Origin: Dactylosporangium sp. AC04546 | Lineage (GTDB): Bacteria; Actinomycetota; Actinomycetes; Mycobacteriales; Micromonosporaceae | Assembly (NCBI RefSeq): GCF_022095675.1 | Contig: NZ_JAHYSG010000154.1 | Span: forward strand, 1-24,059 | Reading direction: 5' to 3' | DNA length: 24,059 bases | Shown here: in pieces, positions 2,522-23,558 of the stretch | Position numbering within the stretch: position 1 is the stretch's first letter | How the letters are laid out: every line of letters begins with the position of its first letter | The notes under the pieces: generated by a model | Told to the model about the DNA's origin: nothing | Seen by the model: the letters and a program-made list of their open reading frames with translations, nothing else | Databases searched by the model: none | Program-made: the position numbers and the translations under genes

Positions 2522-2563
2522 TAGAGTACACTCTAGACGCCGCACGAGATAGAGTACACTCTA
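2522..2563. promoter_or_regulatory. Divergent control region with two identical palindromes
   Basis: TAGAGTACACTCTA occurs at 2522-2535 and again at 2550-2563. The centres are 28 bp apart, between the permease genes (minus) and the ATPase gene (plus). Each is a 6-bp inverted repeat around AC. TACACT at 2555-2560 could serve as a -10 for the ATPase gene, and TAGAGT on either strand is also -10-like, so a protein bound here would block both promoters. Related single sites lie before the other transcription units of the window. Operator function is inferred from repetition and position. Confidence 0.65.
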
Positions 2564-2593
2564 AAGGCGGGCCCGGCGAGGGGAGCAGCAACG

Positions 2594-3598
2594 ATGGCGG
2601 AACCATTGCTGAGCGTCAGCGCAGTCAGCGTCAGCTTCGATACGCCTCGAGGAGCCGTGCACGCTCTCGATGACGTGTCGCTCGACCTCTGGCCACGGCA
2701 GACGATCGGCGTTGTCGGCGAATCCGGATCCGGCAAGTCGGTGCTCGCGCGCACCATCATGAACCTCCTGCCGCGCAACGCCAGCGTTGGCGGCAGCGTT
2801 CGGTTTCTCGGCCGCGACGTCCGCGACCTGCCGCCGGACGAGCGCAAGCACTTCTGGGGCACGCGGATCGGAATGGTGTTCCAGGATCCCATGACCTCGC
2901 TCAACCCGACAAAGCGCATCGGGACGCAGCTCACCGAGGGCTTGCGCTACCACAAGAAGCTGAGCCGATCCGAGGCCCGAACGGCGGCGCTCGAACTGCT
3001 CGACCAGGTGCACATCCCGGACGCCGCTCGTCGCCTCCGCCAGTATCCCCATGAGCTGTCGGGAGGAATGCGGCAGCGCATCGTCATCGCCATCGCGCTC
3101 GCGTGCGAGCCGCGCCTGCTGATCGCGGACGAACCGACCACGGCGCTCGACGTCACCGTGCAGCGTCGAATCCTCGACCTGCTCGACGAGCTACGGCGCG
3201 ACCGCGAGATGGGACTGATCCTGATCACGCACGATCTCGGCGTCGTCAAGGGCCGCGCCGACGAGATCATGGTGATGTACGGAGGCCGCGTGATGGAGCG
3301 CGCCGACACCGCGTCGCTCTTCGCGGGGCATCACCACCCCTACACCGAGGCGCTGCTCGGCTCGATACCGCGGCTCGACAAACCCGCCCACACCCGTCTC
3401 GTCGCCATTCCCGGGCGACCGCCGAACCTCGTCGACCTCCCGCGGGGGTGCCGGTTCACGGCGCGCTGCGGGTACGCACAGGAACGCTGCGCTTCGGAGG
3501 AGCCTTCGCTCTTCCGAGCGAATCCGGAGCACGAGTACGCCTGCTTCCACCCGCTTCCGCATCAATCCGCGGACGCCCAGCTAGCGACCGGCACCTGA
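2594..3598 (+). CDS. ABC transporter ATP-binding protein, DppD/OppD type
   Basis: 334-residue cytoplasmic ATPase that would power the dipeptide-type importer encoded divergently. The sequence shows Walker A (GESGSGKS), the Q-loop (FQDPMTSLNP), the signature (LSGGMRQR), Walker B (LLIADEPTTALD) and the H-loop (LITHDLGVV). The C-terminus carries the oligopeptide/dipeptide-specific extension with the cysteine pattern RGCRFTARCGYAQERC. The ATG at 2594 is preceded by GGGGAG nine bases upstream. Length is normal for DppD. It is read away from the permeases, so the transporter is split over two divergent transcripts that share one control region. No solute-binding protein gene is present, so a partner must be encoded elsewhere. 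Confidence 0.94.
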   Translation: MAEPLLSVSAVSVSFDTPRGAVHALDDVSLDLWPRQTIGVVGESGSGKSVLARTIMNLLPRNASVGGSVRFLGRDVRDLPPDERKHFWGTRIGMVFQDPMTSLNPTKRIGTQLTEGLRYHKKLSRSEARTAALELLDQVHIPDAARRLRQYPHELSGGMRQRIVIAIALACEPRLLIADEPTTALDVTVQRRILDLLDELRRDREMGLILITHDLGVVKGRADEIMVMYGGRVMERADTASLFAGHHHPYTEALLGSIPRLDKPAHTRLVAIPGRPPNLVDLPRGCRFTARCGYAQERCASEEPSLFRANPEHEYACFHPLPHQSADAQLATGT

Positions 3599-3604
3599 TC
3601 CGTA

Positions 3605-3618
3605 TACAGTATCCTTTA
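3605..3618. promoter_or_regulatory. Palindromic motif/-10 region before second ATPase
   Basis: TACAGTATCCTTTA lies in the 57-bp gap between the two ATPase genes. It matches the window-wide consensus TAGAGTAYACTCTA at 9 of 14 positions. TATCCT (3610-3615) is a plausible -10 for the gene starting at 3656. Read on the other strand, its flank (AAATAAAGGATACTG) closely resembles the site at 13437 (AAATAAAGTATCCTG). This suggests the second ATPase is not simply read through from the first. Confidence 0.5.
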
Positions 3619-3655
3619 TTTCGGTGCACCGGTTGAGTGTGAGCAGGGGGAGTCG

Positions 3656-4660
3656 ATGGCAGGAAGCGGGACAGCGCAGCTACGCGACGCCGAGGACATC
3701 GTGCTGCGCATCGAGAACCTCGTGGTCGAGTACCCGATCGGCCGGGGACGGGTGGTGCACGCGGTCTCCGACGTGTCGTTCGACGTGCGCGAAGGTGAGA
3801 CGCTCGGCATCGTCGGCGAGTCCGGGTGTGGCAAGTCGACGACTGCCCGCGCCGTCATTCAGCTGCCGCCGCCCAACGAGGGATCGGTGAGCTATCGCGG
3901 CCGGGAGCTCACGACATTGAAGGCCGAAGAGATGCGGCGCCTCCGGCCGGCGCTCCAGATCATCTTCCAGGACCCGGTATCGTCGTTGAACCCTCGTCGA
4001 AAGATCCGTTCGATCGTCAGCGAGCCGCTTCGAGTGTGGGGCGACAAGCAACGCACGGCGGGTCGCCGGAGTCCCGACAACGTCGACCGGCTGCTCGAAT
4101 CCGTCGGCCTGGACCCTGACGCAACGGGCGAACGACGGCCGTCCGAGCTCTCCGGCGGCCAATGCCAGCGCGTCAGCATCGCACGAGCGCTCATGCTCGA
4201 TCCCGACGTCATCGTTTGTGACGAGCCGGTGTCGGCGCTCGACGTGTCGGTACAGGCTCAGATCCTGAATCTGCTCGAGGACATGAAGGAGCGCTACGGC
4301 CTGACGTTGCTCTTCATCAGTCACGACCTGTCCGTCGTGCGCAACATCAGCGATCGCGTCCTGGTGATGTACCTCGGCAAGGTGTGCGAGATGGGCAACG
4401 GCGACGCCGTGTTCGAGAAGCCGGCGCACCCCTATACCCGAGCACTCCTGGCCGCGATCCCCGATCCGGCGCCATGCGTCGATGTCAGCGAAGCGGATCT
4501 CAAGGGCGAACTTCCCTCCCCGATCGACCCGCCCGCCGGCTGCCGCTTCCACACTCGCTGTCCGCAGGCGCAGGAGCGCTGCCGGGTCGAAGAGCCGGCG
4601 GTCCGGCCGATCGGCGACGACCACTACATTGCCTGCCACTTCCCGATCCTGAAGGAGTGA
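3656..4660 (+). CDS. ABC transporter ATP-binding protein, DppF/OppF type
   Basis: 334-residue cytoplasmic ATPase, the second nucleotide-binding subunit of the dipeptide-type importer. Visible motifs are Walker A (GESGCGKS), Q-loop (FQDPVSSLNP), signature (LSGGQCQRVSIARAL), Walker B (VIVCDEPVSALD), H-loop (FISHDLSVV) and the family C-terminal extension (PPAGCRFHTRCPQAQERC). The signature has Cys where most relatives have QQR. The ATG at 3656 follows a purine-rich GGGGGAG. A separate promoter/operator candidate sits just upstream at 3605-3618. The gene converges on the CoA-transferase operon, with a large palindrome between the two stop codons. Confidence 0.94.
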   Translation: MAGSGTAQLRDAEDIVLRIENLVVEYPIGRGRVVHAVSDVSFDVREGETLGIVGESGCGKSTTARAVIQLPPPNEGSVSYRGRELTTLKAEEMRRLRPALQIIFQDPVSSLNPRRKIRSIVSEPLRVWGDKQRTAGRRSPDNVDRLLESVGLDPDATGERRPSELSGGQCQRVSIARALMLDPDVIVCDEPVSALDVSVQAQILNLLEDMKERYGLTLLFISHDLSVVRNISDRVLVMYLGKVCEMGNGDAVFEKPAHPYTRALLAAIPDPAPCVDVSEADLKGELPSPIDPPAGCRFHTRCPQAQERCRVEEPAVRPIGDDHYIACHFPILKE

Positions 4661-4682
4661 CGGCGCGCTGATCGGCCCGGCT

Positions 4683-4740
4683 GCGACCGTGGCCCCGTTC
4701 AGCACGACGACGTCGTCGTGCTGAACGGGGCCACGGTCGC
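4683..4740. terminator. 58-bp perfect palindrome, bidirectional terminator
   Basis: Bases 4683-4711 are the exact reverse complement of 4712-4740: two 29-bp arms with no unpaired centre. It lies between the stop of the second ATPase (4660) and the stop of the CoA-transferase subunit (4749), so transcripts from both sides would form the hairpin. No T-tract follows on either strand, as is common for high-GC actinobacterial terminators. Reading as a terminator rests on the convergent position. Confidence 0.8.
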
Positions 4741-4748
4741 GTGGATCC

Positions 4749-5408
4749 CTAGACGGCCATCTCGGTGATGTCGGCTGCGATCGAGATCGGCGCAGCCGTC
4801 GCCTGCCGAACCTCGTCGACGGTGACACCTGGCGCGACCTCTCGCAGTACGAAGCCGGATCCGGTGATGTCGAGCACCGCAAGGTCGGTGATGACCCGAT
4901 TCACCACGCCGCGGCCGGTCAGGGGCAGGCTGCAGGCCTGGACGAGCTTCGGGCTGCCGTCCTTGGCAAGGTGCTCCATCAGGACGACGACTCGCTTCGC
5001 GCCACAGGCGATGTCCATCGCGCCGCCCATGCCCTTGATGAGCTTGCCCGCGATCATCCAGTTGGCCAGGTCCCCGCCGGCGGACACCTGCATGCCGCCG
5101 AGAAGAGCGAGATCGAGATGGCCCCCGCGAACCATCGCGAACGACAGTGCGGAGTCGAAGATCGACGCGCCGGCGACGAGCGTGACGGGCTCCTTGCCGG
5201 CATTGACCGTGTCCGGGTCCTCGTCCTCGACTGCCGGAAACGGGCCGACGCCGAGGATGCCGTTCTCACTGTGCAGGATCACCCTCGTCGAGGGGCTGAG
5301 GTACCGCGGAACGGACGTCGGGATGCCGATGCCGAGGTTGACGTACGTGCCATCGCGGAGTTCCTGAGCCCCGCGGGCGGCGATGCGGGCACGGGCCTGT
5401 GCGCTCAC
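4749..5408 (-). CDS. CoA-transferase subunit B (class I, 3-oxoacid type)
   Basis: 219-residue beta subunit of a class I CoA-transferase, which moves CoA between a donor acyl-CoA and an acceptor acid (succinyl-CoA to 3-oxo acids in well-known members). The catalytic glutamate is in HSENGILGVGP (Glu48), matching the ENG-x-LG-x-GP signature. Further family segments are TYVNLGIGIPTSV near the N-terminus and LALLGGMQVSAGGDLANW. The GTG at 5408 overlaps the stop of subunit A (GTGA), giving tight coupling. Size and signature fit succinyl-CoA:3-ketoacid or 3-oxoadipate CoA-transferases. The actual acid is unknown. It is the last gene of the eight-gene operon and ends at the large palindrome. Confidence 0.9.
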   Translation of the reverse strand: MSAQARARIAARGAQELRDGTYVNLGIGIPTSVPRYLSPSTRVILHSENGILGVGPFPAVEDEDPDTVNAGKEPVTLVAGASIFDSALSFAMVRGGHLDLALLGGMQVSAGGDLANWMIAGKLIKGMGGAMDIACGAKRVVVLMEHLAKDGSPKLVQACSLPLTGRGVVNRVITDLAVLDITGSGFVLREVAPGVTVDEVRQATAAPISIAADITEMAV

Positions 5409-6157
5409 TGCGCGACCCCTGCTGCCCGTCGTTCGATGCGCTTCGGCGTCGAACCCGCGGTCTGCACCACCCGCTGCACGAAGACGCCGGGCAGGTGAAT
5501 GTGATCCGGGTCGAGTGCACCGGCCGGGACGATCTGCTCGGCCTCGGCTACGGTCACGCGTCCAGCCATCGCGCACAACGGATTGAAGTTCCGGGCGGCC
5601 GAGTGGAACATCAGGTTCCCTTCCGTATCGGCGACGGCGGCGTGGACCAGACCGAAGTCGCACACGATGGAGTGCTCCAGCACCACCTCGACGCCGCCGA
5701 GCACCCGGGTCTCCCGAGGCTCGCTGCGGACCACGATCTCGCCGTTCGGACCGTACCGGATCGGCATACCGCCGGCTGCGACCTCGGTGCCCACCCCCAC
5801 CGGTGTATAGAACGCGGGGATTCCGGCGCCTCCGGCGCGCAGGCGTTCCGCGAGTGTCCCCTGCGGAACCAGCTCGACCTCGAGCTCCCCGGACGTGAAC
5901 TGCCGGACGAACTCGATGTGTTCGCCCATGTACGAACTCGTCATGCGCGCGATCTGCTTGGCCTTCAGCAGGATGCCCAGTCCCCAGTCGTCGACACCGC
6001 AGTTGTTCGACACCACGCGCAGGCCACGGACGCCCTTGGCCGCCAGCGCGGCGATCAGATCCATCGGAATTCCGCAGAGCCCGAAGCCTCCGACGGCGAT
6101 ACTGGCACCGTCCGGTACGTCGCCGACCGCGTGCCCGGCATCCATGACCTTGGTCAT
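5405..6157 (-). CDS. CoA-transferase subunit A (class I, 3-oxoacid type)
   Basis: 250-residue alpha subunit, partner of the preceding entry. The glycine-rich CoA-binding signature GGFGLCGIP (residues 23-31) is present, followed by LRVVSNNCGVDDWGLG and, later, EVAAGGMPIRYGPNGE and FHSAARNFNP, all usual in succinyl-CoA:3-ketoacid CoA-transferase A chains. I chose the ATG at 6157, five bases after the stop of the acyl-CoA ligase gene. Translation is probably coupled to that gene because only a weak Shine-Dalgarno is visible. The IpdA ring-opening hydrolase of steroid catabolism is a related fold, but IpdA is longer and the catalytic Glu in the B subunit here argues for a true transferase. Confidence 0.9.
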   Translation of the reverse strand: MTKVMDAGHAVGDVPDGASIAVGGFGLCGIPMDLIAALAAKGVRGLRVVSNNCGVDDWGLGILLKAKQIARMTSSYMGEHIEFVRQFTSGELEVELVPQGTLAERLRAGGAGIPAFYTPVGVGTEVAAGGMPIRYGPNGEIVVRSEPRETRVLGGVEVVLEHSIVCDFGLVHAAVADTEGNLMFHSAARNFNPLCAMAGRVTVAEAEQIVPAGALDPDHIHLPGVFVQRVVQTAGSTPKRIERRAAGVAQ

Positions 6158-6162
6158 CGCGC

Positions 6163-7785
6163 TCAGCGTTTCACCTCGAAGCCGACCAGATCCCGGTCCC
6201 AGACGTCGGGGGCCAGTGGGCGCGAGCGAAGTGCCACCTTGTCGGTCTTGTACTGCGCGTTGCGCGGCAGCTCGCTCACGATCTCGATGTAGCGCGGTAC
6301 GAAGTAGTAGGGCGCGTTGTCGTTGATGAAGCATGCGAGATCGTCCGGAGCGAGTGACACTCCCGCGCGTGGCACCACCGCGAGCGCCAGCTCCGCCTCG
6401 GACTCCAGCTCGGCCGACTGCCGACCGAACGCGGCGACGTCCGCGACGTCAGGGTGTTTGGCGACCACCGCCTCGACCTCGACCATCGAGATGTTGCGGC
6501 CTTTGTAGCGGATGTAGTCCTTCTTGCGATCGGCGAAGAAGTACTGCCCTTCCTCGTCGCACCTGGCGAGGTCTCCGGTGTGGTGCCACAGGTTACGCCA
6601 GGTCTGCGCGGTCACGTCCGGGGCGTTGAAGTAGCCCGCGAACAGCATGAACGGTTCCTTCGGGCGGACCACGATCTCACCGACCTCGCCGACCGGCACG
6701 TCCTCGTCGTTGTCGTCGACCAGGCGCACCTCCAGCCACGGAACCGGCCGGCCGATCGCATTCGCTCTCCAGGCCGTACCGTCGTCGGGGGCGGCGAAGA
6801 TCCGGCACGGCACCTCGCTCTGCCCATAGGCTTGCTGCACATCGGGAATGCCGAAGCGCTCCTTGAAACGCGGCACGTCACTCCACGGCATCGGCACAGG
6901 CACCGCGCAGCGGACCGGGTTGTCGCGATCGTCCGGGCACTCGTCGGCCTGCATGAGAAACATGTGCATGGCACCGAGCGTGAAGATCTGCGTCGCCTGG
7001 TAGTGCCGTACACGATCCCAGAACTTCGAAACCGACAGCCGCGGATCGATCCCGATCGCGGTACCGCTCACCAGCGAGGGCCACAGCGCGGTGGTGTAGG
7101 CGCCGCCCAGGTACATGGGCAGACAGGAGTACCAGACCTCGTCATCACGGATGTCACGGTCGGCGATCCAGTAGTGCGCCGACCGCATCAGCCCGGCGTG
7201 GGTCTGCATGATGCCCTTCGGCGCCCCGGTCGTCCCGGAAGACCACCACATCATCAGCACGTCGTCATACTTCGCCACCGACGGCAGCCCGATCGGCTCG
7301 CTGGACAGCAGCTCGTCCCAGGCGTGCACGGTCAGGCCAGGACGGCGCAGCGCGTCGAGATCGGTGGTACCGGTGACGACGAGGTGCTGCACCTGCGACA
7401 TGTCGTCGACCTCGGCGTAGCGCTCGGCAAGGTGGGCATCCGTGATCAGGACCCGTGCGGTCGACGCAGCGATGTTCCTGCTGAGAAACTCGCCGTGGTA
7501 ATCGGTACTCATCGGCGCGAACATGGCACCGAGCTCCGATGCGCCGATGCCGGTCAGGACCAGCTCGATCGACGGGTCCATGTGCATCGCGATCACATCG
7601 CCGCGACCGACACCGAATCCGCTCAACGAGGCAGCGATTCGAGAGACGAGCTGTCTCGCCTCGCCGAAGGTCACCACTCGGTCGTCAGACATCAGCCACG
7701 TTGCATCGGGAGCGTGCTCGGCCTGCGCGGACAACACGCGCCCGACAACCCGGTCGGTCAGACGGGAAAGGTCAACGATATGCAT
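6163..7785 (-). CDS. AMP-forming acyl-CoA ligase (ANL superfamily)
   Basis: 540-residue cytoplasmic ligase that would activate a carboxylic acid to its CoA thioester via an acyl-adenylate. The phosphate-binding loop SSGTTGAPKG is at residues 182-191. The adenylate motif YGQSEV, the hinge-side segment YFFADRKKDYIRYKGRNIS and a C-terminal lysine in NAQYKTDK (about residue 515) are all in place. The overall pattern resembles the CaiC-like (crotonobetaine/carnitine-CoA ligase-like) 'ATP-dependent acyl-CoA ligase' group rather than long-chain FadD proteins. The ATG at 7785 has GGAG six bases upstream. It sits 15 bases after the LLM gene and 5 bases before the CoA-transferase genes. Substrate unknown; from context a short or hydroxylated acid. 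Confidence 0.9.
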   Translation of the reverse strand: MHIVDLSRLTDRVVGRVLSAQAEHAPDATWLMSDDRVVTFGEARQLVSRIAASLSGFGVGRGDVIAMHMDPSIELVLTGIGASELGAMFAPMSTDYHGEFLSRNIAASTARVLITDAHLAERYAEVDDMSQVQHLVVTGTTDLDALRRPGLTVHAWDELLSSEPIGLPSVAKYDDVLMMWWSSGTTGAPKGIMQTHAGLMRSAHYWIADRDIRDDEVWYSCLPMYLGGAYTTALWPSLVSGTAIGIDPRLSVSKFWDRVRHYQATQIFTLGAMHMFLMQADECPDDRDNPVRCAVPVPMPWSDVPRFKERFGIPDVQQAYGQSEVPCRIFAAPDDGTAWRANAIGRPVPWLEVRLVDDNDEDVPVGEVGEIVVRPKEPFMLFAGYFNAPDVTAQTWRNLWHHTGDLARCDEEGQYFFADRKKDYIRYKGRNISMVEVEAVVAKHPDVADVAAFGRQSAELESEAELALAVVPRAGVSLAPDDLACFINDNAPYYFVPRYIEIVSELPRNAQYKTDKVALRSRPLAPDVWDRDLVGFEVKR

Positions 7786-7800
7786 GGGAGGCTCCGTGAC

Positions 7801-8754
7801 TCAGGGGGCTAGGCTCAGGACGGCGTCGCCGACGTCGACGCCTATAGGCAGCAGGGCCAACACAGGTGTCGTGACACCGCTGTCGACGAACTCGGCGATC
7901 TTCGCCTTGCACACCTCGGGAGGGCCGTGGACGCAGACCGCGTCCACGACCTCATCGGGGACGGCGGCCACGGCCCCCTTCCGGTCGCCGGCGTCCCACG
8001 CGTCCCACATGGCAGCCAGCGCGTCGGCATGCCCGAGCCAGGTCTGGTATGCGCGATAGACCGGGACGGTCAGGTAGCCGGTGATCAGTGAGCGAACAAC
8101 CCTGCGGACCGCTGCTGCGTCCGTCGAGGGGCAGACCATGATCCGCGCCACGATCTCCGCCGCGGGGTTCTCCTCGTGCACGATGGCGGCGATTCGGCGC
8201 ACGTCCTGTGCCGAGACCCAGTTCAGGATCACGCCGTCGGCCTCGCGCGCGCCCATTCTCAGCATCCGCTCCCGCAGGGCGGCGACCACGATCTTCGGTG
8301 CCGTCTCGGGCACCAGGCCCAACCGGAACCCGTTCACGGCGAACGACTCGTACCGCTCGTCGACACGTTCGCCGGTGAATGCCGCTCGCAGGAACCGAAC
8401 CACGTCACGGGTACGCGAATAGGGCTTGTCGAAGGGAATGCCGTTCCACCCCTGGACGATCACGTTCGATGACGCGCCGATTCCGATGACGAAGCGACCG
8501 GGCGCGGCTGCCGCCATGGCGGCGGCGGACTGGGCGAGCAGGGCCGGTCCCCGGGTGAACGACGAAACGATGGCGGTGCCCAACCGTAGCCGCGGCTCGA
8601 CCGCCGCGGCGAGCGCCAGCGGCGTGAGCCCGTCGGCACCGTTGGCCTCCACCGACCACAGATCGGTATAGCCGGCATCGGCCAGTTCCCGGTACACCTT
8701 CGGATGCTCGGCGAGCGGGACCCCGTCGAGCGGGACCGTCAATCCCCAGGCCAT
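7801..8754 (-). CDS. LLM-class flavin/F420-dependent oxidoreductase
   Basis: 317-residue TIM-barrel protein of the bacterial luciferase-like family, which uses FMNH2 or coenzyme F420. Family segments are YTDLWSVEANGADGLTPLALAAA, LRLGTAIVSSFTRGPALLAQSAAAMA and PGRFVIGIGASSNVIVQGWNG, followed by PKIVVAALRERMLRMGAREADGV. I start it at the ATG at 8754 (MAWGLTVPLDG), whose first base is the last base of the upstream kinase stop (TGATG). The longer open frame would add 20 residues that do not look like the family. Cofactor choice cannot be settled by eye; F420 is common in actinobacterial relatives. In this operon it might reduce a keto group or oxidise an alcohol; that is conjecture. Confidence 0.85.
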   Translation of the reverse strand: MAWGLTVPLDGVPLAEHPKVYRELADAGYTDLWSVEANGADGLTPLALAAAVEPRLRLGTAIVSSFTRGPALLAQSAAAMAAAAPGRFVIGIGASSNVIVQGWNGIPFDKPYSRTRDVVRFLRAAFTGERVDERYESFAVNGFRLGLVPETAPKIVVAALRERMLRMGAREADGVILNWVSAQDVRRIAAIVHEENPAAEIVARIMVCPSTDAAAVRRVVRSLITGYLTVPVYRAYQTWLGHADALAAMWDAWDAGDRKGAVAAVPDEVVDAVCVHGPPEVCKAKIAEFVDSGVTTPVLALLPIGVDVGDAVLSLAP

Positions 8755-9791: not shown

Positions 9792-9847
9792 CTGTCCGCC
9801 CCAAGTTCGCTCGCACGGCTGTTCAAGTTCTGGTCTGCGCAACGCTG

Positions 9848-11134: not shown

Positions 11135-11149
11135 GTCGCCCGCCTTTCG

Positions 11150-12217: not shown

Positions 12218-12229
12218 TGAGATCCGCTC

Positions 12230-13405: not shown

Positions 13406-13436
13406 CTGCTCCCCTGGTCAACCAAGCGTCGAGAAA

Positions 13437-13481
13437 TTCAGGATACTTTATTTGGCCCACTGCGGCAACCTGTTGCCGCAG
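13437..13481 (-). promoter_or_regulatory. Promoter of the eight-gene operon with two overlapping palindromes
   Basis: On the minus strand, TTGCCG (13463-13468) and TATCCT (13440-13445) are 17 bp apart, a good vegetative-type promoter about 35 bp before the dehydrogenase start. The -10 lies in the shared motif (minus strand TAAAGTATCCTGAA, 13437-13450). The -35 lies inside a second inverted repeat, CTGCGGCAAC-CT-GTTGCCGCAG (13460-13481). Either could be an operator; the second could also be an old hairpin terminator of the GMC remnant upstream. Confidence 0.6.
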
Positions 13482-15693: not shown

Positions 15694-15774
15694 CGATGCC
15701 TCCTGCGATTCGTCGAATCCGACCGCACTGCGCCGCGCACTGCTGATCAGCGACGCTACCACGGCGATCCGTAA

Positions 15775-15788
15775 ATCAGTACACCCTA
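15775..15788. promoter_or_regulatory. Palindromic motif upstream of the Baeyer-Villiger gene
   Basis: ATCAGTACACCCTA lies in the 122-bp gap upstream of the monooxygenase and matches the shared consensus TAGAGTAYACTCTA at 10 of 14 positions. On the minus strand TAGGGT (15783-15788) is a possible -10, giving a leader of roughly 80 bases. The flank AAATCAGTACAC resembles that of the site at 23545 on its minus strand (AAATCAGTATAC). Confidence 0.5.
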
Positions 15789-15815
15789 TTCTGGCCAACC
15801 TCACGAGCAGCCCGG

Positions 15816-17957
15816 CTAGCGGAGCACGAGGAGTGCGTCGAGCGCTTCCACGTCGCCACCGTCGACGAGCAACGGATTGACTTCCAGCGAATCCAGCCTG
15901 TCACCGAGCGACTGAGCAGCCGCCGCGACGGCAGCCACGGCGTCAACGAGCGAGTCGATCTCGACCGGGCGCCGGCCTCGCGCGCCCCGAAGCAGAGCGG
16001 CGCCCTGTAGCTCCCCCAACATGCGCTCGATACCGGCGCGCGACACCGGAAGCATGCGCATGGCCGTGTCCCCGAGGATCTCCACCCATACCCCGCCCAG
16101 TCCGACTACCAGCACCAGGCCCCACTCGTCGTCCCGCTGCACACCGACCAGCAGTTCGAGCCCGGTTCGGCGCATCGGCGAAACCATCACGCCATCGACG
16201 CGGAGACCCGGGCAGGCGGCCGATCCGGCGTCCTGGACGGCCACGTAGGCCTGCCGCACCTCCGCCGGTCCTTCGACATCGAGACGAACGGCGCCCGCAT
16301 CGCTCTTGTGGGGAAGATCGGGCGACACCAGCTTCAGGACGACGGGACCCCCCATGCGGCCGGCCGCCGTCACCGCTTCTTCAACGGAGTGCACCAGGAC
16401 GGCGGGGACGAACGGCACGCCGGCCGATGTGAGCAGCCGTCGCGACTGCCATTCAGAAAGGACACCCGAAGGCAGGCCCTCCGCTCGCCCGTCGGCTCGG
16501 ACCGGGGTGCCCTCTTCCGATGCGGAAAGGCGATGGCGAGACCACCATGAGAGGTGGGCCAGAGCCTGGGTACCCAGATGCAGCCCGGGCAGGCTCAACG
16601 AGATCCCGGCCCGAGCGACCGCCGCCCGGCCATAGGCGTTGAGGTGGGCGACGGTCTGCGACAACAGGACTGCGGGTGTCGAGACGGACGTCAGGCCGTC
16701 GCTGATCGTGCCGAGCAAGCGATCAAAGGTGGGATCCTTGCACGACGGATACGGCGGGACGTTCGTCAGCACGGCGATGACGCCGACCTCGTCGACGTGG
16801 TCCGTCACGTTGAGAACGCGCTTGAACTCGTCGCCGCGCGACCCGCCAGTGAGATCCAACGGATTCTGCACCGTGGCGAACGACGGGACGATCTGCCGGA
16901 TCTCGGCCGCTGCATCGCCGTCGAAGGGCGGCAACGGTAGGCGGGTCCGTTCCGCCTGGTCGGCGACGATGTCGCAGGAACCGCCGCTGATGGAGATCAC
17001 CGCGACCCCCGGCGCCCGCAATGGGCCGGTGCGCGCGATCAGGCCGCTGGTCAGGATGAGGTCTTCGAGGGAGTCGACCCGGATGACTCCGTACTGTGCG
17101 AAGGCCGCGTCGATGACGCGATCGTTCCCCACCAGGCTGCCCGTATGGGACAAGGCGTTTCGTGCCGAGATCTCGCTGGAGCCCGCCTTCAGGAACACGA
17201 TCGCCTTGCCGGCGTCTCGAGCTCGGCCGGCGATGTCACGGAACCGACGGGCGTTGCGGATCTGCTCGGCGAAGACCGCGATGACCGTCGTATCGTCGTC
17301 CTCGACCAGATACGCCAGTGCGTCCGTGGTCGACAGCATGGCTTCGTTGCCGGTGGTGATGACGTGACTGAGCCCGATGCCGAACTCGTCGGCCAGATCG
17401 ACCGCCGCGTTGCCCACACCGCCGCTCTGCGACAGCACGGCGACCGGTCCCACACTCAACGACACCGGCAGGCTTGACACCCAGCCACAGGATCGCCGGG
17501 CGAAGTTGGCGAACCCCAGGCAGTTCGGGCCGATGACGGTGACACCGCACCTGCGGGCGTCGGCCACAAGTTGATCCTGGCGTTTCCGCCCGTCGGCACC
17601 CGACTCCGCCCACCCACTCGAGAAGACCACGGCGCCGGCGATCCCCGCCGCACCGGCATCAGCGATGACCTCGGCGGTCGCCGCGGCCGGGACGATGACC
17701 AGCGCGAGATCCACCGGTTCCCCGATCTCCTGGCATGAGCGGGCGGCCGGCCGGCCGAACACGACTCCACCCGAGCGGTGCACCGGATAGATCGGTCCGT
17801 CAGCGCCGATCCGAGATATCGCCTCGATGACCCCGCCGGCCATCGTTGAGGAGTCTTTGGCACCGATGACCGCGATGCTGCGCGATCGGAACAGTCGCCG
17901 CATGTCTTCAATCGATCCGGGCGCCGAGGTAGATATCGAGCTGTCGACCAACTCCAC
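15816..17957 (-). CDS. ADP-forming acyl-CoA synthetase, fused alpha-beta (first copy)
   Basis: 713-residue NDP-forming acyl-CoA synthetase that makes an acyl-CoA from an acid, CoA and ATP through phosphohistidine. The N-terminal CoA-binding domain has SIAVIGAKDSSTMAG (about 27-41). The ligase domain has IGPNCLG (142-148), LSQSGG and the phosphohistidine loop LSHTGSLVGND (His271). The C-terminal ATP-grasp domain has SPDLPHKSDAGAVRL and GLGGVWVEILGDTAMRMLP. I prefer the GTG at 17957, with AAAGGG seven bases upstream. The GTG at 18002, overlapping the hydrolase stop as GTGA, is the alternative and would place the palindromic motif at 17975 inside the coding region. A paralogue lies at 20551-22704. 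Substrate unknown. Confidence 0.88.
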   Translation of the reverse strand: MELVDSSISTSAPGSIEDMRRLFRSRSIAVIGAKDSSTMAGGVIEAISRIGADGPIYPVHRSGGVVFGRPAARSCQEIGEPVDLALVIVPAAATAEVIADAGAAGIAGAVVFSSGWAESGADGRKRQDQLVADARRCGVTVIGPNCLGFANFARRSCGWVSSLPVSLSVGPVAVLSQSGGVGNAAVDLADEFGIGLSHVITTGNEAMLSTTDALAYLVEDDDTTVIAVFAEQIRNARRFRDIAGRARDAGKAIVFLKAGSSEISARNALSHTGSLVGNDRVIDAAFAQYGVIRVDSLEDLILTSGLIARTGPLRAPGVAVISISGGSCDIVADQAERTRLPLPPFDGDAAAEIRQIVPSFATVQNPLDLTGGSRGDEFKRVLNVTDHVDEVGVIAVLTNVPPYPSCKDPTFDRLLGTISDGLTSVSTPAVLLSQTVAHLNAYGRAAVARAGISLSLPGLHLGTQALAHLSWWSRHRLSASEEGTPVRADGRAEGLPSGVLSEWQSRRLLTSAGVPFVPAVLVHSVEEAVTAAGRMGGPVVLKLVSPDLPHKSDAGAVRLDVEGPAEVRQAYVAVQDAGSAACPGLRVDGVMVSPMRRTGLELLVGVQRDDEWGLVLVVGLGGVWVEILGDTAMRMLPVSRAGIERMLGELQGAALLRGARGRRPVEIDSLVDAVAAVAAAAQSLGDRLDSLEVNPLLVDGGDVEALDALLVLR

Positions 17958-17974
17958 CGTGTTTCCCTTTCGGC

Positions 17975-17988
17975 CAGAGTATGCTCTT
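17975..17988. promoter_or_regulatory. Palindromic motif before the first ADP-forming synthetase
   Basis: CAGAGTATGCTCTT is an AGAG/CTCT inverted repeat around TATG and matches the shared consensus at 10 of 14 positions. It sits just past the hydrolase stop and 18 bp before the preferred GTG start of the synthetase. CATACT on the minus strand could be a -10. It suggests the synthetase has an internal promoter/operator in addition to read-through from the hydrolase gene. Confidence 0.45.
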
Positions 17989-17998
17989 TTCTTGCCGC

Positions 17999-18988
17999 TC
18001 ACGGCCCGGCGGGCACGTCAATCGCCGGCGCGATCGGGTGAAGAGCCCGCTGCAGCGCCGCGAGCATCTCCGCGTCGCAACTGCGTGATACGCCTGCCGA
18101 CGGGGCGATGACCTCGAAGCCGTGTGGCGCGCCGGGGTAGACGTGAAGTTCGGTCGGAACCCCGGCCGCGAGGAGACGTGTGGCGTAGGCGATGCTCTCG
18201 TCACGGAAGAGGTCCGCGCCCCCGACCGCGACAAATGCCGGCGGCAGGCCGGCCAGGTCGACGGCCCGGGCTGGGGCGGCGTAGGCAGGCAGGTCCGCCC
18301 GGCCGGCATCCGACCCCAGGTAGGCACGCCAGCCGAGCGCGTTCGCCGATCTGCCCCATACCGGGGCGCCGTCCATCTGGCTCGACAGCGTGGTCTGCCG
18401 GTCGTCAAGCATGGGGTAGACCAGGACCTGATGGGCCAGCGACGGCCCGCCGCGATCACGCGTGAGCAACGCCACCGCTGCCGCCAGGCCCGCCCCCGCG
18501 CTCGAACCGGCGATCACGATGCGGCCGGGGTCGATGCCGAGCGTATCCGCGTTCGCGACCGCCCAACTCAACCCGGTGTAGCAGTCCTCGAGCGGAGTTG
18601 GATATGTGTGCTCGGGTGCCAGCCGGTACTCGACTGAGACCACGACGCAGTCAAGCGCCTCAACCCAGCGGTTGAGCCGCGCGTCAACGGTGAGCGCGCT
18701 GCCACTGATGTAGCCGCCGCCGTGGATCCAGTACACGCACGGCCGGGTAGGCCCCGCATCCGGCGGGGAGTAGACGCGCACACGTACCGCCGCATCGACC
18801 TGCTCGTCCCGGAAGACGGTCGTTGTCGGTGGGGCCGCGGGGACGGGAAGCGCCGCCCGGGCCGCCCGCCGGGCGGCGATCGTCTCAAGTGTCCACTCGT
18901 CGAAGTCGAACGTACCGGGCGGAAGCGCGGCGAGCTGTGCGGCGATCTCCGGGTCCAGCCCTGCCGTGTACGAGTGCGTGACTCCCAT
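17999..18988 (-). CDS. Alpha/beta hydrolase, hormone-sensitive-lipase type
   Basis: 329-residue esterase/lactonase of the HSL family. The oxyanion-hole motif is HGGG (residues 89-92) in YWIHGGGYISGSA; the nucleophile serine is in GSSAG (Ser163). The acid is the aspartate in GGADLFRDESIAYA, and the histidine is in PGAPHGFE near the C-terminus, so the triad is complete. An N-terminal cap of about 60 residues is usual for the family. The ATG at 18988 lies six bases after a TATACT -10-like box on the minus strand with no Shine-Dalgarno, so a leaderless transcript is likely. Its stop overlaps an alternative GTG start of the synthetase. In context it could cleave the ester or lactone made by the Baeyer-Villiger enzyme. 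Confidence 0.9.
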   Translation of the reverse strand: MGVTHSYTAGLDPEIAAQLAALPPGTFDFDEWTLETIAARRAARAALPVPAAPPTTTVFRDEQVDAAVRVRVYSPPDAGPTRPCVYWIHGGGYISGSALTVDARLNRWVEALDCVVVSVEYRLAPEHTYPTPLEDCYTGLSWAVANADTLGIDPGRIVIAGSSAGAGLAAAVALLTRDRGGPSLAHQVLVYPMLDDRQTTLSSQMDGAPVWGRSANALGWRAYLGSDAGRADLPAYAAPARAVDLAGLPPAFVAVGGADLFRDESIAYATRLLAAGVPTELHVYPGAPHGFEVIAPSAGVSRSCDAEMLAALQRALHPIAPAIDVPAGP

Positions 18989-18991
18989 GAA

Positions 18992-19005
18992 CTAAGTATA
19001 CTCTA
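18992..19005. promoter_or_regulatory. Symmetric divergent promoter/palindromic motif
   Basis: CTAAGTATACTCTA contains the perfect palindrome AGTATACT (18995-19002). Read on the minus strand, TATACT ends six bases before the hydrolase ATG. Read on the plus strand, TATACT (18997-19002) ends seven bases before an ATG at 19010. The same eight bases may therefore supply the -10 element in both directions, each placing the transcription start at or next to a start codon. It also matches the shared operator consensus at 11 of 14 positions. Confidence 0.6.
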
Positions 19006-19009
19006 TCCA

Positions 19010-19078: not shown

Positions 19079-19104
19079 CGCTGAAAGATCTCCGGAGGTG
19101 GCGT

Positions 19105-20217
19105 GTGCGGACCGAACTGTGCCGGACATTGGGGATAGAGTTCCCGATCGTGGCCTTCAGCCACTGCCGCGACGTCGTCGCCGCGGTCTCCAACGCCGGC
19201 GGGCTCGGCGTCCTCGGGATCAGTGGGACCACGGTCGAGCAACTCGATCGCGAACTGACCTGGATTGAGGATACCGTTGGAGGCAGACCCTACGGTGTTG
19301 ACGTCCTCCTGCCGGCTCCGGCGACGGGCGCGCCCGTCCCGATCGAGGACCTGCTCCCCATGGCGCACAAGGAGTTCGTCGCCGATCTGCTTGCCCGCTA
19401 CGGCGTCCCGCCGCTGCCCGACCCCGGGTCGACGCGCACCGTGTCGGGTGCGATGGCCGCCCACGGCGCAGCGCTGATCGAGGCCGCGCTCGAGCACCGG
19501 GTCGCGCTGGTCGCGAGCGCGCTGGGGCCGCCGCCGCCGGAGATGGTGGCGCTTGCGCACGACCGCGGCGTACCGGTCGCCGCGCTGGTCGGCAAGCGTG
19601 AACACGCCGAGCGGCAACGCGACGCCGGCGTCGACATCATCGTCGCCCAGGGATACGAGGCGGGAGGGCACGTCGGTGAGATCGGGACGATGGTTCTCGT
19701 CCCCGAGATCGTCGATGCGGTCGCCCCGCTCCCGGTGCTGGCGGCCGGTGGGATCGCGTCCGGGCGTCAGCTCGCCGCCGCGCTGGCGCTGGGGGCTCAG
19801 GGCGCATGGACCGGCTCGGTCTGGTTGACGACCAGCGAGGCCGAGACCCATCCGGCGGTCGTGGAGAAGTTCCTGCAGGCGACATCGAGCGACACGATCC
19901 GGTCGCGTGCCAGCACGGGAAAGCCGGCCCGCCAGCTGCGCTCGGCCTGGACCGACGAGTGGGAGGATCCGGCACACCCCGACCCGCTGCCCATGCCGTT
20001 GCAGATCGTCCTGACCGCCGACGCGCGGGCGCGCATCCAACGCGGGGCACACACGCCGGACAGCGGCGCGCACAAGCTGATCAACTACTTCGTCGGCCAG
20101 GTGGTCGGCTCACTGAACACCGTGCGTCCGGCCCGGCACGTCCTGCTTGACATGGTCGAAGAGTACGTCGAGGTCGTGGAGCGGCTCGCCGCCGCCACCC
20201 GCGGGTCAGCCGACTGA
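19105..20217 (+). CDS. Nitronate monooxygenase-family FMN protein
   Basis: 370-residue TIM-barrel flavoprotein of the nitronate monooxygenase/2-nitropropane dioxygenase family. Signature segments are AAVSNAGGLGVLGIS (near residue 27), AQGYEAGGHVGE (181-192, with the His at the usual active-site position) and the FMN-phosphate region PVLAAGGIASGRQLAAALALGAQGAWTGS. I start it at the GTG at 19105, which has GGAGG six bases upstream and gives MRTELCRTLGIEFPI. An earlier GTG at 19075 overlaps the stop of a small ORF but lacks a ribosome site. Many family members in degradation clusters act on CoA thioesters or unknown substrates, so nitronate oxidation is not assured. It is the only plus-strand gene in the right half and ends in a hairpin shared with the convergent neighbour. 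Confidence 0.88.
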   Translation: MRTELCRTLGIEFPIVAFSHCRDVVAAVSNAGGLGVLGISGTTVEQLDRELTWIEDTVGGRPYGVDVLLPAPATGAPVPIEDLLPMAHKEFVADLLARYGVPPLPDPGSTRTVSGAMAAHGAALIEAALEHRVALVASALGPPPPEMVALAHDRGVPVAALVGKREHAERQRDAGVDIIVAQGYEAGGHVGEIGTMVLVPEIVDAVAPLPVLAAGGIASGRQLAAALALGAQGAWTGSVWLTTSEAETHPAVVEKFLQATSSDTIRSRASTGKPARQLRSAWTDEWEDPAHPDPLPMPLQIVLTADARARIQRGAHTPDSGAHKLINYFVGQVVGSLNTVRPARHVLLDMVEEYVEVVERLAAATRGSAD

Positions 20218-20227: not shown

Positions 20228-20243
20228 CGTGCCCGGGCCTGGC

Positions 20244-20567
20244 TCAGCCCTTTGACCAGACGGGAACTCCCCACACGTACTCCCGCTCAGCCGTCGCCGC
20301 GTTGAGGGCGTCCAACGACTCGCCGGCGAGCGCCTTCGCCCGGTGCTCGTCGAAGTCGGCCCGGGAGGCGAAGATCTCGAAGCAGAAGAAGGTGTCCGGG
20401 TCGTCCACGGCACGGCTGAGAACAAACAGTTCCGTCCCGTCCTCTCCCGAGACCTGGTCGAACACCGGGGCGTATCCCTTGACGAGATCGTCCCCGCGGC
20501 CCGGATGTGCCCGGGTGCGGACGAGACAAGCGAACTTCTCCGTCGGTCCGTCAGCTGTGTCTGCCAT
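20244..20567 (-). CDS. Small ABM-domain (antibiotic biosynthesis monooxygenase-like) protein
   Basis: 107-residue single-domain protein with the dimeric ferredoxin-like ABM pattern: FACLVRTRAHPGRGDDLVKGYAPVFDQV, then GTELFVLSRAVDDPDTFFCFEIFASRADFDEHR. Relatives include cofactor-free quinol monooxygenases, haem-degrading proteins and many of unknown role. The ATG at 20567 lies inside the end of the upstream synthetase gene (17-base overlap) with AGGCAGGAAC as a ribosome site, so the two are co-translated. It is the last gene of the enoyl-CoA hydratase operon. A catalytic function cannot be assigned from sequence alone. Confidence 0.8.
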   Translation of the reverse strand: MADTADGPTEKFACLVRTRAHPGRGDDLVKGYAPVFDQVSGEDGTELFVLSRAVDDPDTFFCFEIFASRADFDEHRAKALAGESLDALNAATAEREYVWGVPVWSKG

Positions 20568-22704
20568 GTTCCTGCCTCATTTCGCTGTTGGGTGTCGATT
20601 GCCAGGTGACGAGTGCGTCGAGTCCCTCGACCTGGTGGCCGTGGACCCAGAGCGGGTTGACCTCGATCGACTCGAGGTCGTCGGAGAGTGACTCCGCGAG
20701 CGTGGCGAGGGCCAGCACGGCATCCACGACGGCATCGACGTCCACCGGCGGCAACCCTCTCGGCGCCCGCAGCAGAGACGCCCCCCGCAACTCGCTCAGC
20801 ATGTCGCGGACGTCCTGCCCGTCCACGGGCAGGACGCGCAGCGCGGTGTCGCTGAGCACCTCGGCCCAGACTCCCCCGAAGCCGACCGCCAACACCTGGC
20901 CCCACAACGGCTTCCGAACGACGCCGACGATCAGCTCAACGCCTTGGGGGCGCATCGGGCTGACGAGGAAGGCCTCGGACCGGTGCCCGGCCGCCGAAAG
21001 GCGCTCGGTGATCCGTTTGGCGGCCGTCCGCAGCTCCTCCGGGCTGCCGACGCCGAGTTCGACCCCACCGATGTCGGACTTGTGGGCCACCGCGGGGAGG
21101 ACCGCCTTGAGCGCGACAGGGAACCCGTGCTGCCGGGCTCCGAGCAGTGCATCGTCGACAGTGGCCGCGACCGTCGCGGGGACCAGCGGGAATCCGGCGG
21201 CGGCGAGCAGCGTGCGCGCCCGCTCCTCGCCCCAGATCTCGCCCGGCGCGTGGCCCGGCAGCGTCATCCGCTCGGCCCGGGAGAGCTCGCGGGATCCCCG
21301 GCGCTGACGCTCGGACCACCAGGCGGCCCGCCCGATAGCCGCGACGGCAAGGTCCATACCGCCGGGCATGATCCGCTCGGAAAGGTCGACCGGGAACCGA
21401 TCGTCGTCGAACGGCTCGCCCTGCCCGAGCGACCCGACCACCAAGGTCGGAACCCGGTCGCTGTCGGCGGCCGCGCGCAGGACATGGGTGAACTTGTCGG
21501 ATGCCAGCGAGTGCGCGCCGGGCACATCGTGCTGGACGAGCACCACGTCGGCATCGGCGTCGCGGGTCACCGCACGAATGATGTTGCCGAACAGGTCGGG
21601 CTGGTTGACGGCCGCACCGGTCACGTCGAGCGGGTTGTTGACGACGCCGTAGTTCGACACGAGCGGCTGCAACGACGTGGTGGTTCGCGGATTGAACGGC
21701 TCGAGCCGCAGACGCTCGTCCTCGGCGCGGTCGGCGATGATGTTGCACGCGCCTCCCGAGATGCCGAGGACGGCGAGGCGGTTGCCGGCCAGAGGAAGGT
21801 CCACGCGAGTGAGCAGGAACGCCGTCGTCATGAGCGCCTCGATGGACGGCACCCGGATCACGCCGAGCTGCCGGAAGACGGCATCGACAACCCGGTCGTC
21901 ATCTACCATCGCACCGGTGTGGGCGGCTGCGACCCGAGCGCCGGCTTCGGTTCGGCCCGCCTTCAGCGCGACGATGGGTTTCCCGGCCTCGAGTGCCAAG
22001 CCCGCCGCCCGGATGAACGCCTCAGGCGACCGGATCGCTTCCATCATCACGGCAATCACGCTCGTGTGCGGATCGCTGGCCAGGTAGTCGATCACGTCAG
22101 CGACGCCGATCACGGCCTCGTTGCCGAGAGCGATCACCTTGCTCACTCCGATGCGCTGCGTCTGGCAGTAGTGCAGCGTCGCACCGGCGAGAGCGCCGCT
22201 CTGCGTCACCAGCCCCACGCTCCCCACGCGGGGGAGGCCCGGCAGAGAGTTCGGCATCAGGGTGACGCCGTCGGTCGCGTTGATGAACCCCATCGTGTTG
22301 GGACCGATGATCGCGAGTTCGTTCTCGAGGGCGAGCCGGCGCAGCTGGTCCTGGGTGTCGCGGCCCTGGTCGCCCGCCTCGGCGAAGCCCGATGTGAGCA
22401 CCACGAAGTTGCGGATGCCGGCCTCGTGCCCCTCCCGGATCGCATCGAGCACGAGCGTGGCCGGAACCATGACATAGGCCGCGTCGACCGGGTCGCCGAT
22501 GTCGGTGAGCTTCGCGACCGCGGTCCGGCCGAAGACCTCGCCACCGCGCCCGTTGACCAACTCCACCCGCCCGGAGAATCTCGTCCGCTCCAGGGCAGCC
22601 ACGATCATGCGGGCCCAGGTGGACCGCTCCGAGGCGCCCACCAGCGCGATCGAGCGCGGGGCAAACAGCCGCTCAAGGCGAGCGGGCGTCGACTGTCCAG
22701 TCAC
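20551..22704 (-). CDS. ADP-forming acyl-CoA synthetase, fused alpha-beta (second copy)
   Basis: 717-residue paralogue of the synthetase at 15816-17957, with the same domain order. The CoA-binding domain begins RSIALVGASERSTWARM. The ligase domain has IIGPNTMGF (132-140), VTQSGALAG and the phosphohistidine loop AAHTGAMVDDD (His262). The ATP-grasp domain has PAVAHKSDIGGVEL and VGFGGVWAEVLSDTALRVLP. The ends of the two proteins are also alike (SIEVNPLWVHG here, SLEVNPLLVDG in the other). Start is ambiguous: GTG at 22704, whose first bases overlap the stop of a 15-codon frame (GTGA), or GTG at 22716. It follows the enoyl-CoA hydratase gene by 51 bases. Substrate unknown. Confidence 0.9.
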   Translation of the reverse strand: MTGQSTPARLERLFAPRSIALVGASERSTWARMIVAALERTRFSGRVELVNGRGGEVFGRTAVAKLTDIGDPVDAAYVMVPATLVLDAIREGHEAGIRNFVVLTSGFAEAGDQGRDTQDQLRRLALENELAIIGPNTMGFINATDGVTLMPNSLPGLPRVGSVGLVTQSGALAGATLHYCQTQRIGVSKVIALGNEAVIGVADVIDYLASDPHTSVIAVMMEAIRSPEAFIRAAGLALEAGKPIVALKAGRTEAGARVAAAHTGAMVDDDRVVDAVFRQLGVIRVPSIEALMTTAFLLTRVDLPLAGNRLAVLGISGGACNIIADRAEDERLRLEPFNPRTTTSLQPLVSNYGVVNNPLDVTGAAVNQPDLFGNIIRAVTRDADADVVLVQHDVPGAHSLASDKFTHVLRAAADSDRVPTLVVGSLGQGEPFDDDRFPVDLSERIMPGGMDLAVAAIGRAAWWSERQRRGSRELSRAERMTLPGHAPGEIWGEERARTLLAAAGFPLVPATVAATVDDALLGARQHGFPVALKAVLPAVAHKSDIGGVELGVGSPEELRTAAKRITERLSAAGHRSEAFLVSPMRPQGVELIVGVVRKPLWGQVLAVGFGGVWAEVLSDTALRVLPVDGQDVRDMLSELRGASLLRAPRGLPPVDVDAVVDAVLALATLAESLSDDLESIEVNPLWVHGHQVEGLDALVTWQSTPNSEMRQEHGRHS

Positions 22705-22748
22705 GACACCGCCCACAACACGTTGGTGAACTTGCCGCCGTGTTTCAT
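22701..22748 (-). CDS. Possible 15-residue ORF coupled to the second synthetase
   Basis: ATG at 22748, seven bases after the enoyl-CoA hydratase stop, opens MKHGGKFTNVLWAVS and ends at TGA 22703-22701, overlapping the GTG of the synthetase as GTGA. The arrangement would allow translational coupling across an otherwise poor ribosome site. The peptide matches nothing I know, and a frame this short arises easily by chance. Confidence 0.25.
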   Translation of the reverse strand: MKHGGKFTNVLWAVS

Positions 22749-22755
22749 AGCCTGA

Positions 22756-23541
22756 TCACGCGCCTTGCCATTGTGGTGCCCGTTTCTCCGCGAAGGCTCG
22801 CGTCCCTTCGAGGAGGTCGGCGCTCGCTCGGATCACGCTGGACGCCTCCCCGCTGAGCCGCCAACCCACCTGTTCCCCGACCCGGACCCCGTCGGCAAGC
22901 TCGAGGAGCACCCGACGGCTCCACCGCACCGCGACCGGCGCGTTCTGGGCGATGCACTCACCCAGCCGGATGGCGGTGGGCAGCACCTCTTCAGGTTCGA
23001 CCACCTCATTGACGAGGCCCCATCGTCCTGCCTCCGCTGCGCTCATCGGTTCACCGGTCAGGGTGAGCCGCATCGCGACCTTGAGCGGGATCTGCTGTTT
23101 CAGTCGCACCAATCCCCCTGCCCCTGCGACGATCCCGCGCTTCACCTCGGGGAGACCGAACGTGGCCGTTGTCGACGCGACGACCAGGTCGCTCGCCAGG
23201 GCGATCTCGGTGCCACCACCGAGGGCAAAACCGTTGACCGCGGCGATGAGCGGCTTGTCGATCTCGTGACGCACCACGCCGGCGAAACCCCACTCCGGGT
23301 GTTCAGGGTCGAGCGGCTTCCCTGCGCCATTGGCGATGGCCTTGAGGTCGGCGCCGGCACAGAAGGACTTGTCGCCCGCGCCCGTGATCACGACGGCACG
23401 GATCTCCCGGTCGTTGGCCACCTCTTCCAGGATCCGACCGACGGCGACCGCCATCTCGGTGTTCACCGCGTTGCGCACCTCAGGCCGGTTGAGGGTAACT
23501 ACCGCCACCGGGCCCTGCCGGTCCAACAGAGCTACATCCAT
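22756..23541 (-). CDS. Enoyl-CoA hydratase/isomerase (crotonase family)
   Basis: 261-residue crotonase-fold enzyme. The oxyanion-hole segments are SFCAGADLKA (59-68) and GFALGGGTEIALASDL. Both acidic residues of true hydratases are in place (Glu112 in GGTEIALA, Glu132 in FGLPEVKRG), so hydration of an alpha-beta unsaturated CoA thioester is plausible. The ATG at 23541 lies six bases after a TATACT -10-like box at the palindromic motif, so the mRNA may be leaderless; AAAGG directly abuts the ATG. It is the first gene of a three-gene unit with the second ADP-forming synthetase and the ABM protein. Isomerase or dehalogenase activity cannot be excluded. Confidence 0.92.
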   Translation of the reverse strand: MDVALLDRQGPVAVVTLNRPEVRNAVNTEMAVAVGRILEEVANDREIRAVVITGAGDKSFCAGADLKAIANGAGKPLDPEHPEWGFAGVVRHEIDKPLIAAVNGFALGGGTEIALASDLVVASTTATFGLPEVKRGIVAGAGGLVRLKQQIPLKVAMRLTLTGEPMSAAEAGRWGLVNEVVEPEEVLPTAIRLGECIAQNAPVAVRWSRRVLLELADGVRVGEQVGWRLSGEASSVIRASADLLEGTRAFAEKRAPQWQGA

Positions 23542-23544
23542 CCT

Positions 23545-23558
23545 TTAAGTATACTGAT
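23545..23558. promoter_or_regulatory. Palindromic motif/-10 region before enoyl-CoA hydratase
   Basis: TTAAGTATACTGAT contains the perfect palindrome AGTATACT (23548-23555) seen also at 18995. On the minus strand TATACT ends six bases before the ATG at 23541, the spacing expected for a leaderless transcript. It matches the shared consensus at 9 of 14 positions. Confidence 0.55.

Follow-up and report, generated by a model that had tools for sequence, protein, structure and literature searches.

We analysed contig NZ_JAHYSG010000154.1 of Dactylosporangium sp. AC04546 at its full length of 24,059 bp (hereafter the window; it is the entire contig C154 of a 13.02-Mb genome in 348 contigs), in which a near-palindromic motif recurs in front of catabolic and transport genes. 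The original prediction listed eight copies of the motif as 14-mers, at 2522, 2550, 3605, 13437, 15775, 17975, 18992 and 23545, and took them for candidate binding sites of a single regulator; all eight are present as written. In its full extent the site reads as an 18-bp palindrome, roughly AAWWSAGTATACTSWWTT, and we speak of these copies as operators in the sense of operators predicted from sequence.

Sites 1 (2520..2537, matrix score 23.1) and 2 (2548..2565, score 23.9) have their centres 28 bp apart in the intergenic region between divergent dppB-type (minus strand) and dppD-type (plus strand) genes. On the left are the genes for dppC- and dppB-like ABC transporter permeases (609..2464, minus; BPD_transp_1), next to an MFS gene on the same strand; on the right are two oligopeptide-type ABC ATPase genes (2594..4660, plus, comprising 2594-3598 and 3656-4660; ABC_tran and oligo_HPY), the second of which, of the dppF type, is preceded by site 3 (3603..3620, 26.9). 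Site 4 (13435..13452, 27.2) stands ahead of an eight-gene run (4749..13405, minus) encoding two CoA-transferase subunits, an acyl-CoA synthetase, an LLM-class oxidoreductase, an APH-type phosphotransferase and three acyl-CoA dehydrogenases. Site 5 (15773..15790, 21.6) is ~80 bp upstream of the likely ATG (15693) of a flavin-binding (Baeyer-Villiger-type) monooxygenase gene (14071..15693, minus), and site 6 (17973..17990, 18.4) is at the 5′ end of a gene for an NDP-forming acyl-CoA ligase (15816..17957, minus). Site 7 (18990..19007, 26.4) lies between the divergent genes for an alpha/beta hydrolase (17999..18988, minus; Abhydrolase_3) and a nitronate monooxygenase-like FMN enzyme (19105..20217, plus), with the arrangement TATACT-N6-ATG towards the hydrolase. 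The same arrangement is seen at site 8 (23543..23560, 21.9), ahead of enoyl-CoA hydratase and NDP-forming acyl-CoA ligase genes (20551..23541, minus), which are followed by a small ABM-domain gene (20244-20567). At the right edge lies the 3′ end of a GntR/FCD regulator gene (23904..24059, minus), cut by the end of the contig and paralogous to a complete gene on contig C95 (C95:5718-6512).

A site lies ahead of each of the nine transcription units that could be judged in the window (9/9, with two pairs sharing a site region), namely dppB-dppC with the MFS gene behind, dppD, dppF, the eight-gene run, the flavin monooxygenase gene, the first NDP-forming CoA ligase gene, the alpha/beta hydrolase gene, the nitronate monooxygenase-like gene and the hydratase/ligase genes. 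The MFS gene, which had been noted as the one without a site, indeed has none before it; it stands behind dppB-dppC in the same orientation and could be part of that operon. The claim that every site is upstream of a gene start holds with plausible starts, with a proviso for the copy at 17975, which is inside the longest open reading frame reading (15816-18002) and is upstream only if the ligase start is later than 18002, that is, the GTG at 17957 or the ATG at 17903 (derived by hand). The further claim that no copy lies inside a gene body is correct for the strong sites and incorrect for weaker in-gene matches, at 19263 (score 12.6, the best), 12206 (9.3) and 666 (7.2) versus 18.4-27.2 for the eight sites. 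With up to one mismatch, the AGTAYACT core has 19 strand-wise matches in the window, each palindromic place being counted twice, compared with 5.06 ± 2.33 in 100 shuffles, none of which exceeded 10.

Confinement of the sites to a catabolic island

Genome-wide scans placed the motif overwhelmingly on the window and its neighbours. We define the island as C154, C95 and the first 3.2 kb of contig C1, which together make up 0.58% of the genome. Allowing one mismatch, TNNAGTATACTNNA occurs at 16 distinct places in 13.0 Mb, 13 of them in the island (reversed control, 7), a distribution with P ~4e-27 under uniform scatter and one that is not that of a motif standing before most housekeeping genes. 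Allowing three mismatches, AWTNNAGTATACTNNAWT occurs at 28 places (18 in the island, 3 on contig C6 and 7 elsewhere; control, 9), and all 11 of the places with no more than two mismatches are on C154, C95 or the C1 edge. A weight matrix built from the eight window sites alone gave the same concentration: at a score of at least 15 it found 16 sites in the 47.7 kb of C95 versus a shuffle mean of 0.1 (20 shuffles per stretch), and, each time with a shuffle mean of 0, two in the first 8 kb of C1, seven at the right end of C6 (31 kb scanned) and 12 in Streptomyces violaceusniger (80 kb). Another 17 loci of the window's genome, 178 kb in total, gave none at this score; like the C6 stretch, they had been chosen for a pattern hit within them. 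On the strength of the shuffles and the held-out matrix we rejected the idea that an AT-rich palindrome recurs by chance in this GC-rich DNA.

The extent of the site was judged from 45 sites scoring at least 15 in the window genome and S. violaceusniger. Information extends to ±8.5 around the centre and no further, which yields AAWWSAGTATACTSWWTT; because the sites had been selected with a symmetric matrix, their symmetry is favoured within these limits and not outside them. G is found at −2.5 in 89 of the 90 half-sites, within a GT-AT-AC core, partly by construction for the same reason. Non-coding DNA makes up 9.9% of the scanned stretches and holds the centres of 38 of the 45 sites. The bare 8-mer AGTAYACT occurs at 18 distinct places, nine of them in the island, and where this core is exact the inner-arm bases are A or T in 33 of 36 cases in the nine island places versus 9 of 36 in the nine elsewhere. 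Thus it is the A/T arms, not the bare 8-mer, that separate island places from others, and the symmetric arms are conserved, with sites recurring at orthologous gene starts in S. violaceusniger. Two non-island AGTACACT places (L014:6473 and L019:154) have a longer context, TTATTTCACCTAGTACACT, in common; the genes behind them look like PadR-type regulators, and these places probably represent a different operator.

The contig ends help to place the island. The right end of C95 and the left end of C154 have 14 bases in common, and one MFS gene is split between the two contigs (MFS_1 profile positions 1-154 on C154 and 155-346 on C95); because of these common end bases and complementary gene parts, C95 and C154 are almost certainly adjacent. 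The right end of C154 and the left end of C1 (C1:1-111) have 67 exact bases in common, in inverted orientation, and both are the 3′ end of a GntR/FCD gene. The regulon extends past the window to C95 and the C1 edge, and probably also to the right end of C6. At the latter (178-202 kb; L034:7873-12113 and L035:1142-10622) there are eight more sites scoring 12 or more, preceding ABC transporter, aldehyde dehydrogenase, amidohydrolase and GMC genes, some of them with a shifted right arm (..TGAATC). Among the 77 genes called on C154, C95, the C1 edge and the C6 stretch, 41 have an S. violaceusniger counterpart with at least 60% identity over at least half the length; these counterparts represent all four contigs, in a different order, which argues for one regulon.

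On C95 a site stands ahead of nearly every unit, many being common to divergent genes; the site at 9360 heads a run of SDR, carboxyltransferase and gntR genes, and a cupin/aldo-keto reductase unit has only weak sites (13.8 and 12.4). C95 and C154 together encode many acyl-CoA dehydrogenases, CoA ligases, CoA transferases and thiolases with ChsH2-type partners, and are also rich in flavin monooxygenases, LLM-class oxidoreductases, carboxylase parts and ABC transporter parts. A search with NCBIfam models for the substrate yielded no model that names a pathway. The two flavin monooxygenases come closest to the model for pentalenolactone D synthase, with 285 and 318 bits at a cut-off of 1100. Of two TcuA models, one dehydrogenase exceeds the cut-off of the first (576 bits against 369) and falls short of that of the second (255 of 372.55). 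Our guess is that the substrate is an alicyclic or terpenoid/steroid-like compound.

The GntR/FCD regulator and its occurrence with the motif

The complete regulator encoded at C95:5718-6512 has a GntR winged helix (PF00392, 31.3 bits, cut-off 27) and an FCD effector domain (PF07729, 57.2 bits, cut-off 24.3), both of which are also found in the S. violaceusniger and four mycobacterial homologues; among solved structures, those closest to it in sequence are of GntR-type regulators and include NanR, 2di3 (LldR) and PdhR. Across nine aligned homologues many residues of the helix-turn-helix and wing are invariant. The cut gene originally described at the right edge of the window was confirmed, with 82% identity to the C95 protein over 33 aligned C-terminal residues. 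A protein search returned, from the window's genome, P0001, which is the complete C95 protein, and P0031, a cluster of two member sequences that is 83% identical to it; the C-terminus of P0031 resembles the copy at the C1 edge when compared by eye. The gntR gene appears to be present as three paralogues, of which two are similar enough to have broken the assembly at that point. Nine of the 16 other FCD paralogues of the genome were checked with 1.5-kb flanks and had no site above a score of 5. Another FCD paralogue (L027, C38:57640-58320) has an exact AGTGTACT core just upstream, without the A/T arms.

The gntR gene lies within a site-headed same-strand run on C95, in S. violaceusniger and in mycobacteria, and in S. 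violaceusniger a further, weak site (10.9; L044:9901) immediately precedes gntR. Retrieval based on protein alone gave homologues from S. violaceusniger (79% identity), six mycobacterial loci (38-46%) and one Ancylobacter locus (27%). Sites scoring above 18 were present beside the homologue in all seven actinobacterial loci, the six mycobacterial ones representing one lineage, and absent from the single Ancylobacter locus (0/1). In the 11.7-Mb S. violaceusniger genome 10 of 16 places fall within the 55 kb around gntR (C2:730,357-785,379; control, 9), as do all nine of those with no more than two mismatches. Twelve gene starts, among the 41 genes with a counterpart, have a site in both genomes, including those of the hydrolase at 18990, the enoyl-CoA hydratase/SDR pair at C95:10209, the thiolase/CoA-transferase pair at C95:15256 and the aldehyde dehydrogenase at C95:33492. 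In the same region of S. violaceusniger (C2:735-793 kb; L053-L055) several genes are called as two overlapping pieces, for example a flavin monooxygenase at 747830-749432, perhaps because of frame errors in the assembly or as an artefact of a simple gene caller.

Among 61 genomes, the regulator was found at E ≤ 1e-40 only in the window's genome and in genome G045. The latter has three places with no more than two mismatches, all within 33 kb around the regulator gene (control, 1), compared with 0, 0, 0, 0, 1 and 0 such places in six congeners in which no regulator was found (controls 0, 0, 0, 0, 1 and 1). The predicted co-occurrence of motif and GntR gene is thus borne out in separate lineages. 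The G045 cluster encodes relatives of HsaA (362 of 450), HsaD (300 of 400) and a ketosteroid dehydrogenase (469 of 789), all below cut-off, together with an acetaldehyde dehydrogenase and a 4-hydroxy-2-oxovalerate aldolase above the model cut-offs. In mycobacteria, G045, Nocardia harenae (P0081) and Pseudonocardia (P0098) the homologous regulator consists of GntR-FCD-GntR-FCD in tandem on one chain of ~455-510 residues (entries L045-L050, L057, P0081 and P0098), with a recognition helix and wing visible in both halves on reading the alignment by eye, and in the mycobacterial loci and G045 the palindrome lies beside the tandem gene.

A probable GntR/FCD regulon and the alternatives

We conclude, with a probability of about 0.85, that a single regulator of the GntR superfamily (FadR/FCD type) uses the eight sites as operators and governs a large catabolic regulon, one contig of which is the window. 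At the level of sequence the sites themselves, their island confinement, their arms and their co-occurrence with the regulator in several lineages are established. The idea of a single-regulator regulon is well supported, with the amendments that the regulon exceeds the window and that three paralogous GntR/FCD genes are present rather than one. As to binding, its repressive sign, the effector and the substrate class, we infer the following. A regulator dimer, of any of the three paralogues, would most likely occupy the palindrome at the promoter; the predicted operator AAWWSAGTATACTSWWTT heads nearly every island unit, including the same-strand run with the complete gntR on C95, and the bound regulator would repress each site-headed unit together with its own. 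Binding of a pathway metabolite to the FCD domain would then release the regulator; a CoA thioester or an intermediate of the ring or side chain is plausible. This would constitute a predicted regulator-operator pair for a large uncharacterised catabolic regulon, in which the operator delimits pathway gene membership and so helps to find the substrate.

Several observations weigh against this interpretation. Taken by itself, the exact 8-mer core shows no genome-wide enrichment (13 forward and 10 reverse matches versus 23 and 28 in the reversed control), the two acyl-CoA dehydrogenase genes paired at C95:11119-13523 lack a site of their own, and no gntR was seen near the C6 sites. Four of the 45 sites have no called gene start in range and seven are centred in called coding sequence; at least four of these seven sit at gene starts of the S. 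violaceusniger counterparts and so reflect the simple gene caller. Counts with three mismatches in four mycobacterial genomes, each set against its control, are 20/21, 29/13, 37/30 and 22/14, and therefore nothing stands out there beyond one or two sites beside gntR; mycobacterial regulons, if real, are small. The survey for the regulator scored only 42 candidates in many genomes, the six congeners included, and the site-bearing cluster of G045 also has a TetR gene.

The motif could instead be a plain −10 promoter element, read by an ordinary or alternative sigma factor with no dedicated regulator. TATACT and TACACT do resemble the −10 hexamer, and at four sites (window 18990 and 23543; L011:577 and 4606) TATACT, TACACT or GATACT is followed after 6-8 nt by ATG, the geometry of a leaderless promoter. 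A −10 box would not be expected at just 16 places in 13 Mb with 13 in 0.58% of the genome, the 18-bp arms are longer than such a box, and the presence of the motif follows the gntR gene across genomes. There is also no TTGACA-like −35 element: over 58 site orientations, and for the TTGACA consensus only, the mean match at offsets −25 to −21 was 1.22-1.48 of 6 versus 1.40 at all offsets. The genome scan and the missing −35 signal led us to reject this explanation, which we regard as highly improbable. A variant of the GntR/FCD regulon, in which operator and −10 element coincide and the regulator occludes RNA polymerase at the −10 box, fares better. It accommodates the four leaderless-like geometries and has a parallel in Atu1419 of Agrobacterium fabrum, a VanR-group FCD regulator which, according to PMC7797058, recognises ATGTATACAT at target promoters, overlapping −10 boxes. 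The lack of a conserved −35 counts against it as well, degenerate cores such as GATACT and GTATCC are poor −10 boxes, and the minimum distance to the start codon would also follow from operators not entering coding sequence; we consider this variant possible, with the balance tilting away from it.

It is also conceivable that another regulator, for example of the TetR family or an FCD paralogue encoded elsewhere, binds the palindrome and that the GntR gene is a mere regulon member. The position of gntR within site-headed runs is what would be expected of a mere target. TetR-family operators are also palindromes of this size, and the TetR gene of G045 is located just behind a site-headed aldehyde dehydrogenase gene. 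In S. violaceusniger TetR-like and LysR-like genes lie outside the site-bearing block, as judged by eye. Against such a regulator stand the GntR signature of the core, the absence of sites at the nine other FCD paralogues, and a Pfam search of all 65 genes counted in the island, in which only GntR/FCD matches a DNA-binding regulator family; the nearest other candidate, a BTAD-domain gene (C1:6588-8000), lies 3.6 kb from the outermost site. We rejected a local regulator of the TetR or another family, none being present among the genes searched, and judge the explanation as a whole unlikely.

As a predicted GntR/FCD regulon, the system has counterparts among known ones. KstR and KstR2, TetR-family regulators of actinobacterial steroid degradation, likewise combine one local regulator with many palindromic operators across a large catabolic cluster, whereas here the protein family is GntR/FCD and the motif differs. 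The GT-N2-AC core was originally said to fit the GntR operator form, and it agrees with the palindromic FadR-subfamily consensus NyGT-Nx-ACNy, some members having 2-nt spacing, as given in PMC4494728. The FadR/FCD regulons described there also combine a GntR winged helix-turn-helix with an FCD domain and have the regulator gene among the likely targets. Unlike them, the present system has a AGTATACT core instead of TKGT/ACMA boxes, A/T arms reaching to ±8.5, many operators over tens of kb and three paralogous regulator genes. Atu1419 (PMC7797058) resembles it in having a GT-AT-AC palindrome at the promoters of one catabolic region, and differs in having three sites in one small region and TG..CA flanks, compared with AG..CT plus arms here. 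No paper on the operator AAWWSAGTATACTSWWTT or on the tandem regulator form was among the matches listed from the open-licence literature.

A broader suggestion, to which we would give somewhat less than even odds, is that AAWWSAGTATACTSWWTT is an old operator code that was kept while its reader changed form and the genes under it changed. The reader would have become a single GntR-FCD protein, three paralogues in the window's genome, and a tandem GntR-FCD-GntR-FCD chain, a 'dimer' in one polypeptide, in mycobacteria and G045, a build that Nocardia and Pseudonocardia proteins share. The genes would be of a terpenoid/alicyclic type here and in Streptomyces and of a secosteroid/meta-cleavage type in G045. 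If this is true, acquisition of the one operator would be the way in which new catabolic clusters were captured. With a conserved motif and regulators that are single, multiplied or fused in tandem, these lineages form a natural series for studying how palindromes are read by a GntR protein, and the single chain carrying both readers of the palindrome would be an attractive object of study.

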